DNA of 64,000 nucleotides from Brachybacterium sp. UMB0905. Lineage in GTDB: Bacteria; Actinomycetota; Actinomycetes; Actinomycetales; Dermabacteraceae. A model generated the notes under the pieces. It saw only the letters and a program-made list of their open reading frames with translations. It was not told the origin of the DNA and did no database searches. Location of the stretch: NCBI RefSeq assembly GCF_002871795.1, contig NZ_PNHL01000001.1:164797-228796 (forward strand), in the 5' to 3' direction. Each line of letters starts with the position of its first letter. Position 1 is the stretch's first letter. This document shows positions 32,948 through 38,540 of the stretch, piece by piece. Position numbers and translations under genes: made by a program.

Positions 32948-32959
32948 GCGACCTGGTGA

Positions 32960-33571
32960 TCACCACACGGGAAGACTGAGCAGGCCGGTCGATGTCAGTG
33001 GCGGGAGGCCGTCGTCGACGGTGCGCAGCTTGGCGTAGAGGGTTCGCAGTGCCGCTCGGTCTGGGAGGTGCTCCGATCCGGCGGCCCGTTTCAAGATGGT
33101 CAGCGTGCCAACGATCGAGAGGGAACCGACGGGTCTGCCCGCTACCCGCAGACGGCGCAGGCGCTGAGCTTCCGTCGCCGCCATGTTTCGGCCCCCACCG
33201 TCATCGATAAGGACGATGACATCGCGCCCCTGTTCTGCAAGTACCACAGCGTGGGCGATGACCATGGTTTCTCCGAGGTCCTTGCTCGCCTCCATGCGTT
33301 GGGCGTAGGGCATACGGCACATGCGACTCACGACGCGCTCAAGGTCTGGGGTCACGTCATCAGACAGCACCGTGAGCAGACGGTCGGGTACTTTGCCGAG
33401 CACTCGCTCCGCAGCGGAGAACCGCCGATCAGTTCGTGCCTTGCGCAGGATTTCCTCGTGAACGGCCTCGGGGACGCAGATCGCTCCGAGCATGGCGAAC
33501 AGCAGCCGTTCCTTGTTCTGCGAGAAGAAATTCAGGCCCGGCCCCGCGTCCATGATCGGGCGGTGAGTCAT
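32960..33571 (-). CDS. PIN-domain-like protein, third gene of an Xre-peptidase-PIN operon
   Basis: The 203-residue protein has the acidic pattern of PIN ribonucleases: Asp8 (PIMDAGPGLNFF), Glu101 (KDLGETMVIAHAV) and Asp123/Asp124 (VIVLIDDGGGRNMA). These residues bind the metal for RNA cleavage. A C-terminal part of about 55 residues is unassigned. Its ATG 33571 overlaps the peptidase stop by ATGA, so it is translated with that gene. No VapB-like antitoxin is next to it; the partner genes are a metallopeptidase and an Xre regulator. It may be the effector of a stress or defence module (inference). RNA cleavage itself is not shown. Confidence 0.7.
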   Translation of the reverse strand: MTHRPIMDAGPGLNFFSQNKERLLFAMLGAICVPEAVHEEILRKARTDRRFSAAERVLGKVPDRLLTVLSDDVTPDLERVVSRMCRMPYAQRMEASKDLGETMVIAHAVVLAEQGRDVIVLIDDGGGRNMAATEAQRLRRLRVAGRPVGSLSIVGTLTILKRAAGSEHLPDRAALRTLYAKLRTVDDGLPPLTSTGLLSLPVW

Positions 33572-34392
33572 CGATCGGGCTCGTCTCCCGCGAGCCCGGT
33601 CAGATCCACCTCAACCGCGGGCAGCTCGTCCAGCTCGAATGCGGTGGGGTCAGCTGGCTGCGGCGTGATACCGAGGTCGTCGAATTCCGCCTGGACCGTC
33701 GCAAGGGGTAAGCCGCGGAGCGCAGCGATGATCGGCAGTCCGATAAGGCCCTCACTGTAGGCAGCTGTTGCGCGACGCAGCAGAGATTGCGGGGCTCTCT
33801 GGCGGTTCGAGGCGTCTTGGAGGGAACGGTACTGGTCCAGCCACCCGTTTCGGGCTGCGACCTGATACGTGGTGAGCCCCATGAGGTCCGTCTTGGTCTC
33901 AGCAGAGATGAGTCCGCAGTCCGCCAGCACAATGGCGGCGATCGCCGGGGATACCAGATAACGCTGCACCACATCGGAGAGGTGCCCGCTGGGGTCGCCT
34001 GCTGCCCGCTCGGTCGTCTGCTGGACACCGCTGCTTGGAGCGAGCAGATGCCGGGCAAAGGCGTCGGCACGAATCTCCTGCATCGGGCGCTCTCCGTCGC
34101 GGTCATGTCCCTCCCAGTCCTCGAAGATCACGTGGGCGAGCTCGTGGGCGAGAGTGCTGCGCTGCCGCATGGGGTGCGGGGTCGCGGCGACCGCGATATA
34201 GACGCGCCCCGTCGCCGGGTCACGCATGGACAGTCCATGCGAGTCCGTATCAGCAGAGATGATCGCGACGTCATGCCCGGTGGTCTGTTCGATCATGGAG
34301 ATCAGGTCCCCGATCGGCTGAACTCCGAGGCCATGCTGCGTGCGGAACGCGAGCGCGGCCTCGCGGGCCTGCTCTTCGATACGTCTACTCAC
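33568..34392 (-). CDS. ImmA/IrrE family metallopeptidase
   Basis: The 274-residue protein has the COG2856 zinc-peptidase signature: STLAHELAHVIFEDWE (His83, Glu84, His87) and EIRADAFARHLLAP (Glu106 as third ligand). Known relatives ImmA and IrrE cleave Xre-type repressors to switch on mobile-element or radiation-response genes. The likely substrate is the Xre protein encoded just upstream. GTG 34392 is chosen as start because it overlaps the Xre stop as GTGA; the TTG seven codons earlier is less likely. The C-terminal 120 residues are helical and of unknown role, possibly sensory. GC content is lower than the heme genes on both sides. Confidence 0.88.
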   Translation of the reverse strand: MSRRIEEQAREAALAFRTQHGLGVQPIGDLISMIEQTTGHDVAIISADTDSHGLSMRDPATGRVYIAVAATPHPMRQRSTLAHELAHVIFEDWEGHDRDGERPMQEIRADAFARHLLAPSSGVQQTTERAAGDPSGHLSDVVQRYLVSPAIAAIVLADCGLISAETKTDLMGLTTYQVAARNGWLDQYRSLQDASNRQRAPQSLLRRATAAYSEGLIGLPIIAALRGLPLATVQAEFDDLGITPQPADPTAFELDELPAVEVDLTGLAGDEPDR

Positions 34393-34718
34393 CGTCGATC
34401 CTGAATTCCGCAATCATCGAGATGCACGTCGATCTCCATGAAGTAGAGCAGCCGCTTGCGCAGATCAGCAGCCGCCCCACCGTTGGTGGTCCGTGCGGCG
34501 GTCTGCACACGCTCGGGCAGGTCTTGTGAGGTCAGCTCCGCGAAGGTCGTCCCTGCTGCCGCAGCGATCCGCAGTAGTTCGGGCGTCTTGGGAGTCCGGG
34601 TTCCGTTGATCACGCGGCTGAGCGTGGCCTGGGGCAGACCTGTCCGTGCCGCCAGCTGACGTTGCGTCAGACCAGCACGCTCTCGCGCAGCATCGACTCG
34701 CTGCCCGATGGTTTCCAT
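34389..34718 (-). CDS. Xre-family helix-turn-helix regulator
   Basis: A 109-residue protein whose first 60 residues form an HTH_3 domain (GQRVDAARERAGLTQRQLAARTG, recognition helix around LPQATLSRVINGTRTP). A short C-terminal tail may dimerise. ATG 34718 follows a strong GGAGGTGA at normal distance; the longer frame starting at 34787 is not needed. It leads a coupled operon with the peptidase (GTGA overlap) and the PIN protein (ATGA overlap). It probably represses its own promoter at the inverted repeat 34788-34812 until cleaved by the peptidase; this regulation is inferred from the ImmR/ImmA and DdrO/IrrE systems. Confidence 0.88.
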   Translation of the reverse strand: METIGQRVDAARERAGLTQRQLAARTGLPQATLSRVINGTRTPKTPELLRIAAAAGTTFAELTSQDLPERVQTAARTTNGGAAADLRKRLLYFMEIDVHLDDCGIQDRR

Positions 34719-34787
34719 CACCGTCACCTCCACATCGCTCGCGCATCTGCTCGGCGCCGCCTGCCGGTATAGACCGCCACGCCGCAT

Positions 34788-34837
34788 GAATCACTTTTGT
34801 AGTCGATGATTCTACCGCGTCGCCGGGTGGTCGTCGA
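34788..34837 (-). promoter_or_regulatory. promoter with overlapping inverted repeat, candidate Xre operator
   Basis: On the minus strand, TCGACG (34837-34832) and TAGAAT (34814-34809) are separated by 17 bases, a good -35/-10 pair for the xre operon. GAATCA (34788-34793) and TGATTC (34807-34812) form a perfect 6-base inverted repeat overlapping the -10 and the start of transcription. The AT-rich element stands out from its surroundings and is placed for autorepression. Confidence 0.5.
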
Positions 34838-34867
34838 GGCTGCGCACAGTCGCTCTGATCACCCGAG

Positions 34868-34873
34868 TAGCCT
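34868..34873 (+). promoter_or_regulatory. candidate -10 box of hemL
   Basis: TAGCCT lies 42 bases before ATG 34910, with CAGGAG as Shine-Dalgarno in between. It faces away from the xre operon promoter. No clear -35. Confidence 0.3.
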
Positions 34874-34909
34874 GGATAAGCCCCCGATGTTCTCAGCCAG
34901 GAGACCCCC

Positions 34910-36367: not shown

Positions 36368-36426
36368 GAGATGATCTGGCGGGGCACCCCGTGCCCGCAC
36401 TGACGAGCTCACCCAGGAGAGGGCCC

Positions 36427-37347
36427 ATGAACTTCTGCGGCATGACCACCGACGAGGTGTCTGGGCACCTCCAGCTGATGAGCACCGATCAGCAACGCCT
36501 GGAGGAGCTGGGGACGGATCTCGGCAGTTCCCTGACTCGCAGCCAGGAGTTCTGGCGGGGCGAGGATGCCGAACGCTTCCGGGCCGCTTTCGCCACGGCT
36601 CTGCAACGTCTGGCCGATACTGCGACGCAGGTCTCCGCACGCTCCACGGAGCTCGCGCAGCATCTGCAGGAGCAGGAGCAGGCCTCCCGCGGCGACAGCG
36701 ACGGCGGCGTATCGGCCCCCGGCAGCGGAGGCGATGGCGAGACCGCCGGGGACGGACCGGTGGATAAGACCAACCATCCCGGCGAAGACCCCTATTACGG
36801 CGAGGTGGACCCCGAGGTTGCCGAGCGCTGGCGCGAGCTGTCCGACGAGGAGCGCGAAGCTGTCGCCCGCGAGATCATCGAGCAGGAGCTGGCGCGGTAC
36901 GGGCTCGAGGACGTGGATATCGACTTCGAAGCACCCCCCGGTTACAACGGCTGGTGGGAGGTCGATGCTGACGGCAACCACTCGATCTCCATCGACGGCG
37001 ACGCGCTGCACAACCCGCGCCTGCTGCACACCCTCGCCCATGAGGCACGCCATGCCGCGCAGTGGGAAGCCACAAAGGACACTGAGCCCGGGATGTGGGA
37101 CTGGCTCCCCTTCGTAGACTCCACCAAGAACGACTACGAGCGGCTGTACAACGAGCATGGCTTCACGCGCGAGGAGATCGATGCCTGGCGGGAGCACTGG
37201 GATACTCCGAAGGATGAGCGGGGTCCGTACCTCGACCAGCCCGTCGAGCTCGATGCCCGCGACCGCGGAGCCGAGTTCTCCGATGACCTGACCATGGATG
37301 ATCTGGAACAGTATATGGAGGACGCCGGAGTCACAGAGGAGAACTGA
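36427..37347 (+). CDS. WXG100-like protein with C-terminal HExxH zinc peptidase domain
   Basis: The first about 95 residues form a helical hairpin with Trp43-Arg-Gly45 (EFWRGEDAERF), as in WXG100 proteins exported by type VII secretion. A Ser/Gly/Asp-rich linker (about 97-125) follows. The C-terminal part contains LLHTLAHEARHAAQWEA: His205, Glu206, His209 form an HExxH zinc site, and Glu274 in VELDARDRGAEF is a candidate third ligand. This fits a secreted or polymorphic-toxin-like protease; no immunity gene is identified. ATG 36427 has AGGAG upstream. Downstream lie two propeller lipoproteins and a DUF4919-like gene in the same direction. The activity is inferred from motifs only. Confidence 0.65.
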   Translation: MNFCGMTTDEVSGHLQLMSTDQQRLEELGTDLGSSLTRSQEFWRGEDAERFRAAFATALQRLADTATQVSARSTELAQHLQEQEQASRGDSDGGVSAPGSGGDGETAGDGPVDKTNHPGEDPYYGEVDPEVAERWRELSDEEREAVAREIIEQELARYGLEDVDIDFEAPPGYNGWWEVDADGNHSISIDGDALHNPRLLHTLAHEARHAAQWEATKDTEPGMWDWLPFVDSTKNDYERLYNEHGFTREEIDAWREHWDTPKDERGPYLDQPVELDARDRGAEFSDDLTMDDLEQYMEDAGVTEEN

Positions 37348-37349
37348 GC

Positions 37350-38540
37350 ATGCCCCCTCAGCCGCATCGACGCCCCTTGCTGGTCGCGGGAGCTCTGCTG
37401 GCCGCACTGCCCCTCGCCGGCTGCGGGCTCCTGCGCAGGAAGGATCCCGAGCCCACGCAGCCAATTGACTCCGACTCCCCCGACGCCGACTCCCCCGAAT
37501 CTGCGCTGCCGACCGCGTCACCCACCCAGTGCCTCAGCGCCGAGGAAGCCGCGCAGCGCACCCGCCCCTCTCCACCGCCGCGCGAGGAGCAGGGGCCCGA
37601 ACATGAGGCGCTGCCCGGGGAGCATCTGAGCGGCATCGGCCTCGCCCTCCTGCCCGGCGGAGACCGCATCGCGGCCAGTCACACCGCCGATGCAATCCTG
37701 CTGGGCGAGGCGGAGACGTACGGCACCGTCATCTGGAACACCGCCGGCGGGACGATCCTCGAGCAGCTCGATAACGGGCTGGTGGGCGCGATCGCCGCGA
37801 GCCCCGACGGTCAGCTGGCCCTGGCCGGGCATGTCAGCGTGGAGATCCGCGACCGTGACCTCACCGTGCAGAAGCTGCTGACCAGCGGGGAGGACGAGCC
37901 CTTCGCCCCGCGGGCGGGCTCACGCATCACCGATCTTGCGATCACCGCCGATGGCTCCCATCTGGCGGTCCTCGGCGCCGATGGGCAGGTCACGCTGTGG
38001 CGGATCGACGGTGAGGCCTGCGAGGCCACCGGCCCGCTGGAGACGGACCTCGAGACGGTCACCGCCCTGGCGCTCTGTCCTGCCGATGGCGCCCTCGCCT
38101 TGTGCGGGCCGGGCGGGCCCGTCGAGCTGTGGGATACGAGAACCGGCGAACGCAGCAGCCTGGTCGACGGAGTGCCCGGTCGCGTCGGCGGCCTCACCTA
38201 TGACGCCGACGGAACCCTCTTCATCGCCGCGGAGAACCCGTCGGCGCTGTATGTCCTCACCCCAGAGGGAGAACTGTCCGATGGGCCGGAGCATGACCAG
38301 CGCGGCCCCTTCTGGGTGGCTGCCGCGAGTGAGCGGGTCGCCGTCGTGGGGCGTCGGAACAACCGGGTCCAGCTGTGGGACCGCACCCGTGATGAGGTGC
38401 GGGAGCTGCCCGTCGTGCCCGGCGTCACCGGTCGTCTCGCCTTCTCTCCCGATGGCGGGACGCTGTATGCCGCCTCGCCCGGGGAGGGCGTCGTGGCGTG
38501 GAGCGGCGGCGAGCAATGGCGGCAGTTCGATCTGCCCTGA
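37350..38540 (+). CDS. beta-propeller lipoprotein
   Basis: A 396-residue lipoprotein precursor: HRRPLLVAGALLAALPLAGC with lipobox cysteine Cys25, then a disordered acidic/Pro-rich linker, then six to seven WD40/YVTN-like blades. Typical blade text is ITADGSHLAVLGADGQVTLWRI and ALCGPGGPVELWD. It should sit on the outer face of the membrane as a binding scaffold. It starts 3 bases after the WXG100-peptidase gene with AGAGGAG upstream, so it is cotranscribed. A paralogue follows at 38648. No enzymatic motif seen. Confidence 0.75.
   Translation: MPPQPHRRPLLVAGALLAALPLAGCGLLRRKDPEPTQPIDSDSPDADSPESALPTASPTQCLSAEEAAQRTRPSPPPREEQGPEHEALPGEHLSGIGLALLPGGDRIAASHTADAILLGEAETYGTVIWNTAGGTILEQLDNGLVGAIAASPDGQLALAGHVSVEIRDRDLTVQKLLTSGEDEPFAPRAGSRITDLAITADGSHLAVLGADGQVTLWRIDGEACEATGPLETDLETVTALALCPADGALALCGPGGPVELWDTRTGERSSLVDGVPGRVGGLTYDADGTLFIAAENPSALYVLTPEGELSDGPEHDQRGPFWVAAASERVAVVGRRNNRVQLWDRTRDEVRELPVVPGVTGRLAFSPDGGTLYAASPGEGVVAWSGGEQWRQFDLP

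Follow-up and report, generated by a model that had tools for sequence, protein, structure and literature searches.

Introduction

In 2009, COG2856-Xre proteins were reported to lie often beside PIN or RelE toxins, and a three-component system was proposed in which the protease would cleave the Xre repressor, seen as the antitoxin of the PIN/RelE toxin or as belonging to a broader cascade; the two domains, Xre and COG2856, occurred fused in more than half of the cases, and phages and prophages were named as carriers (Makarova, Wolf, Koonin, PMC2701414). Within the literature searched, this prediction of protease-gated PIN systems has one recent experimental case, fused and from a pathogen: VapBC52 (Rv2515c-Rv2514c) of M. 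tuberculosis, which is reported to self-cleave with single-stranded DNA, to bind its PIN toxin and to cleave tRNA, VapB52 being a single fusion of 415 amino acids (aa) that has a cysteine switch and, as its C-domain, four helices (PMC13273310, Nucleic Acids Research, June 2026). CapP carries a cysteine switch as well, and CapH/CapP control the operon of a cyclic oligonucleotide-based antiphage signaling system (CBASS; PMC13273310). DdrO/IrrE (PprI) of Deinococcus controls several DNA repair genes (PMC10904395, PMC7907104). Here we describe a trio of genes for an Xre regulator, an M78 peptidase and a PIN-fold protein in a 64,000-nt stretch of Brachybacterium sp. UMB0905 (contig NZ_PNHL01000001.1, positions 164,797 to 228,796; hereafter the window, whose own numbering is used throughout).

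The trio is a conserved autonomous cassette, and it is a split, well-delimited actinobacterial form of the predicted Xre-COG2856-PIN kind, an idea that was itself already known. What is new is a near-invariant operator with apparent single-operon control, a decay biased toward the PIN gene, and a modelled linker strand as a plausible cut site. The initial annotation of the locus had left open whether such a trio had been described: it was predicted in 2009 (PMC2701414) and a fused relative was tested in 2026 (PMC13273310), and a search by title and abstract, with subscription papers mostly outside it, found no split Xre/M78/PIN trio with this operator.

The cassette has the same three parts and the same proposed logic as the 2009 systems, from which it differs in being split in most loci and in having no phage copy that we could find. 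With VapBC52, a likeness at the level of description, it has in common an Xre-like domain and an IrrE-type peptidase governing a PIN protein; in the window, however, Xre and peptidase are separate, the switch cysteine is absent and the peptidase ends in a short acidic tail. Like CapH/CapP, it has a separate repressor and M78 peptidase, and CapP and CapH chains are among the structural matches of a modelled fusion homologue, but its output is a PIN protein and not a CBASS operon, and the cysteine switch is again absent. It resembles DdrO/IrrE in pairing an M78 peptidase with an Xre-type repressor, also among the structural matches, yet in most carriers there is one operator per genome, unlike the multi-gene regulon of Deinococcus: the same enzyme pair has one operon as its output instead of a repair regulon.

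Results

The three genes lie on the minus strand in the order xre, peptidase, PIN. The overlapping arrangement proposed in the initial annotation is confirmed, neighboring genes sharing 4 bp (34718-34389, 34392-33568, 33571-32960). An Xre helix-turn-helix protein thus stands beside a peptidase of COG2856, which we take to be equal to M78/PF06114, with a PIN-family protein in the same operon. The features of the locus are as follows.

34389..34718, minus strand: Xre (Cro/C1-type) regulator, 109 aa; helix-turn-helix at about residues 4-62, conserved tail at about 70-99
33568..34392, minus strand: M78 / ImmA-IrrE family metallopeptidase, 274 aa; HELAH at residues 83-87 plus Glu106
32960..33571, minus strand: putative PIN-fold ribonuclease effector, 203 aa; D8, E101, D123, D124
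34787..34813, minus strand: operator AGAATCA-N13-TGATTCA, one mismatch to the family consensus; recognized from homologues
34814-34809, minus strand: -10-like TAGAAT, overlapped by the operator (by eye)
34724..34731, minus strand: ribosome-binding site GGAGGTGA, upstream of the ATG at 34718 (by eye)
34482..34511, minus strand: Xre linker, residues 70-79 (RVQTAARTTN), predicted docking and cleavage segment
34132..34146, minus strand: HELAH zinc-binding motif of the peptidase
33592..33627, minus strand: acidic C-terminal tail motif of the peptidase ELPAVEVDLTGL, candidate PIN-binding peptide
32948..34909, no strand: extra DNA within the hemB-hemL junction, 1962 bp against 1-181 bp in 29 relatives; ends approximate

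A genome scan with a PIN alignment gave 87 confirmed places, of which 80 were kept as 78 distinct loci, nearly all actinobacterial by title (the exceptions are L023, an Acidobacteriaceae metagenome-assembled genome, and L071, an uncultured bacterium). The initial annotation expected the three genes to occur together beyond the window's strain, and they do so in 74 of the 78 loci, with Xre and peptidase as separate genes in 70 of these and as one frame in four (L018, L045, L061, L063). Of the four non-trio loci, L066 starts 219 bases and L068 14 bases ahead of the PIN match. In L072 a fragment of PIN is preceded by 795 bases that hold neither a peptidase nor another partner, and in L037 PIN stands alone, xre and peptidase both being absent from the 6 kb upstream. 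The association also holds from the other side: in a sample not chosen by PIN, the peptidase was found at E 1e-20 in 12 of 296 class genomes, with Xre adjoining it in all 12 and a PIN sequence in 11. An order-level sample gave 18 peptidase places in 17 of 397 genomes, and a peptidase-anchored set (E 1e-40 or better, repeats removed) comprised 24 places, 23 of them with a PIN sequence beside the peptidase; two of its members, L271 (identical operator) and L272 (both in G001), are the same loci as L076 and L032. One peptidase relative, L275, has no recognizable PIN within 1.5 kb, and L307-L309 have no match to the window's PIN family, with other PIN-like frames, seen by eye, downstream. An exchange of the effector was considered and set aside, no other effector type being found among peptidase relatives at 1e-20. 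The PIN also matches 10 of 72,556 plasmid records, and for seven of these the identity is 54-57% with 90% or more of its length covered; in the three plasmid regions that we read the trio stands amid unrelated genes.

Upstream of xre, at the inferred promoter, the family has a near-invariant operator, TGAATCA-N(11-13)-TGATTCA. Among 75 upstream regions (the 74 trio loci and the window), 70 have an N12 or N13 form with at most one mismatch and two more an exact N11 form, as compared with an N12/N13 operator in none of 15,000 base-shuffled upstreams; L074 and L071 have two and four mismatches, and L059 falls outside the count through a misplaced start codon, an exact site being present in its genome. 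A TANNNT -10-like box abuts the operator in 68 of 72 cases. A LexA-type element was rejected (GAAC-N4-GTTC in 0/75 upstreams). A whole-genome search was made for 40 of the 78 loci and covered 39 carrier genomes other than the window's own (2.4 to 10.1 Mb); the exact N12/N13 site occurred exactly once in 37, and the other two have the N11 form (L039) or a one-mismatch form (L078), both at the cassette; with one mismatch allowed (N13), there is a single site in 19 of 20 carrier genomes and one extra site in one genome. In the 296 class genomes the operator is found in 13 (nine at the cassette, four elsewhere), against two for a reversed control pattern; the operator-pattern matches listed for viral_contigs we take, unchecked, to be mostly chance. 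Because the operator occurs once per genome in most carriers, Xre appears to regulate its own operon and little else, insofar as visible operators (exact N12/N13, one-mismatch N13) report on this. The match in the window is not significant alone, since 39 of 100 shuffled windows match at three mismatches or fewer, and what makes it convincing is its place. The half-sites are kept almost exactly, yet they are 11, 12 or 13 bp apart, a variation that looks unusual if the repressor is a rigid dimer.

Xre and peptidase score above the Pfam cut-offs of PF01381 and PF06114 and match the PADLOC models capH (1.4e-8) and capP (3.5e-11). In the linker that follows the DNA-binding domain, an R-x5-R motif is invariant (Arg70 and Arg76 in 75/75), and residue 73 is Cys in 59 of 75 sequences and Thr in the window copy. 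In a structure model of a natural Xre-peptidase fusion homologue this linker is a beta-strand, and the peptidase part resembles CapP, PprI and IrrE; the model makes the R-x5-R linker a plausible cut site. An acidic C-terminal tail is present, by the pattern used, in 67 of 75 peptidases.

For the third protein, the PIN identity put forward in the initial annotation stands in substance: it has a PIN fold with a conserved acidic active site and matches PADLOC PDC-S70, its only profile match, but it has no Pfam match even at E 10. Its best Foldseek E-values are only 0.067-0.1, with tryptophanyl-tRNA synthetases mixed in, and no PIN chain came up when PDB sequences were searched with the PIN profile, the top match being a lectin that we take as spurious. 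From its fold, the protein is a probable RNA-cutting enzyme.

Lesions in the cassette fall mainly in this gene. Of the 74 PIN-anchored trio loci, 11 have a PIN that is frameshifted, interrupted by a stop or partial, one has a broken peptidase (L069, whose peptidase frame continues into PIN) and none a broken Xre; in L071 and L074, where Xre is divergent, tblastn missed the gene and phmmer found it. That 11 of 12 lesions lie in PIN is more than gene length alone would give (p = 7e-5). In the peptidase-anchored set, where decay of the peptidase was not judged as it is the anchor, 8 of 24 places have a broken PIN or none, as against 0 of 21 for detectable Xre. Here a frame break after residue 21 was counted as a lesion (L277), L280 proved on checking to be split over three frames, and the shorter ends of Xre in L280 and L281 were not counted; one lesion (L271 = L076) is common to both sets. 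Because PIN is broken far more often than Xre or peptidase, the pattern fits a costly effector, and sequencing error as sole cause is disfavored since it should strike the longer peptidase gene more, many carriers being draft or metagenome-assembled genomes. Outside the PIN family, L308 and L309 encode, by eye, 400-aa fusions of Xre and M78 with a different PIN-like frame behind them, which looks disrupted near its start in L309 and open in L308; biased decay may extend beyond the family.

In the window, hemB and hemL (identified by NCBIfam) are 1962 bp apart, parted by extra DNA, whereas in relatives they are close and co-directional. Their gap is 1 to 181 bp in 29/29 measured relatives, which bears out the insertion that the initial annotation had proposed. 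These are 29 of 47 family genomes, retained from a sample of 34 loci after leaving out L081 and L083 (outside the family set), L082 (a distant family member, computed gap -12, hemB end unaligned), and L086 and L098 (hemB matched in pieces, with computed gaps of 19 and 63). The PIN gene is present in 4 of the 47 family genomes, sited away from the hem genes. Its closest relatives in the locus set belong to other families (a Ruaniaceae bacterium, 66%; Saccharopolyspora, 65%; Kocuria, 65%), as compared with 58% for Brachybacterium timonense, where Xre is only 37% identical; for the peptidase the contrast is small (51% in B. timonense against a best of 54%). Since the closest relatives are in other families, the distribution is patchy and the GC content of the trio is lower (65.1%), sequence comparison suggests that the trio arrived horizontally. 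As hemB and hemL are almost adjacent in relatives, a separate hemL promoter may now sit between operator and hemL (34787-34909), where, by eye, TAGCCT near the hemL start could be a -10 box.

Discussion

We favor, with a probability of about 0.68 for the mechanism as a whole, a reading in which the cassette has moved horizontally and works by itself as a three-component switch of toxin type. Xre would bind the operator at its own promoter and keep the operon low until a signal, by analogy with PprI, CapP and VapB52 most likely single-stranded or broken DNA, leads the M78 peptidase to cut Xre close to Arg70-Arg76, in the linker that joins the DNA-binding domain to the conserved tail. The initial annotation proposed repressor cleavage as the switch, which fits the protein families and the structure model; the damage or phage trigger that it suggested draws on these relatives and not on the locus itself. 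Loss of Xre would derepress xre-peptidase-PIN and may also release PIN from a pre-formed complex, and the nuclease, judging from its fold and from VapC52, would then cut RNA, probably tRNA, and stop growth.

Several observations weigh against this reading. Of 75 peptidases, six have a Cys between HEXXH and the third ligand; the other 69, the window's included, lack this cysteine switch, so activation may differ from that of CapP and VapB52. No phage record among 50,697 matches at E 1e-5, and a scan of viral_contigs gave 52 pattern stretches with no relative among these. A rough GC-frame script delimited 109 immediate neighbors (13 loci and proteins >700 aa left out), and in the 107 scanned, both L052 rows having been dropped, neither a PADLOC nor a Pfam family appears in more than 3, so that these neighbors form no consistent defense setting. 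In the window, the operator departs from the consensus at one position and is 68 nt away from the ATG, compared with 4-26 nt for 50 exact N13 sites, a distance that makes its promoter unusual, and this copy could be drifting. The PIN lesions, finally, could in part be assembly errors or reflect loss of a dispensable last gene. The phage results also led us to reject a phage origin of the cassette. In L032, an N12 operator lies 30 nt from the start. Some immediate neighbors match restriction or defense models; having no background rate for neighbors, we claim no enrichment, and for the trio itself hints of phage defense are limited to PADLOC models such as PDC-S70, capP and capH.

The strongest rival, which we would place a little short of even odds, overlaps with the switch just described and does not exclude it: transcriptional control would be secondary, and Xre, the acidic tail of the peptidase, or both would block PIN as VapB52 does VapC52, so that cleavage frees pre-made PIN. 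The contacts of the N- and C-domains of VapB52 with VapC52 (PMC13273310), the frequency of the acidic tail, the conserved tail of Xre and the 4-bp overlap of the peptidase and PIN genes all speak for such a direct complex, yet the VapB52 C-domain is likened to the peptidase tail without established homology, and the one-per-genome operator shows that transcriptional control is conserved too.

It is tempting to speculate on a latent enzyme-substrate complex, although we think it unlikely, in which the Xre linker strand in the peptidase cleft would replace the cysteine switch in trans and the acidic C-tail would mask the PIN active site. If true, a single signal would at once cleave the repressor, free the promoter and expose the RNase, and the window copy, with Thr73, would need another ligand there.

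Also doubtful is that Xre and peptidase form a pure regulator, an immunity switch like those of prophages or integrative and conjugative elements, with PIN as a passenger or RNA-processing helper and not a toxin. The pair is of the ImmR/ImmA type, and PIN is often broken with its partners intact. ImmR/ImmA of ICEBs1 controls an integrative element; no such element was seen among the immediate neighbors, to which the scan extended and of which only 2 of 107 match an integrase family, phage records hold no match, and in most carriers the only operator found is that of the operon itself, with nothing else visibly regulated. That the operon senses or regulates the heme pathway is very improbable: in the window the trio lies between hemB and hemL, divergent from hemL and abutting its upstream region, but the 78 loci (flanks up to 6 kb) have no hemB match and a single, weak hemL match on the other strand (L035), and the four carriers among the 47 family genomes have PIN elsewhere.

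The cassette of this Brachybacterium-like actinobacterium thus brings together an operator found once per genome in most carriers searched, a cut site and a toxin-binding tail, the latter two predicted, and as the form is split and its operator defined, repression, cleavage and toxicity can be tested separately.

Beyond the trio, a gene next to hemL (36391-37347, plus strand) encodes a 318-aa protein without a Pfam or NCBIfam match that has, by eye, a WXG100-like N-terminus and a HEXXH-like C-terminal stretch (HTLAHEARH), and is possibly a secreted zincin-type effector. Directly after it (37350-38540, plus strand) is a gene for a 396-aa beta-propeller (WD40-like) protein with, again by eye, a lipoprotein-like start.
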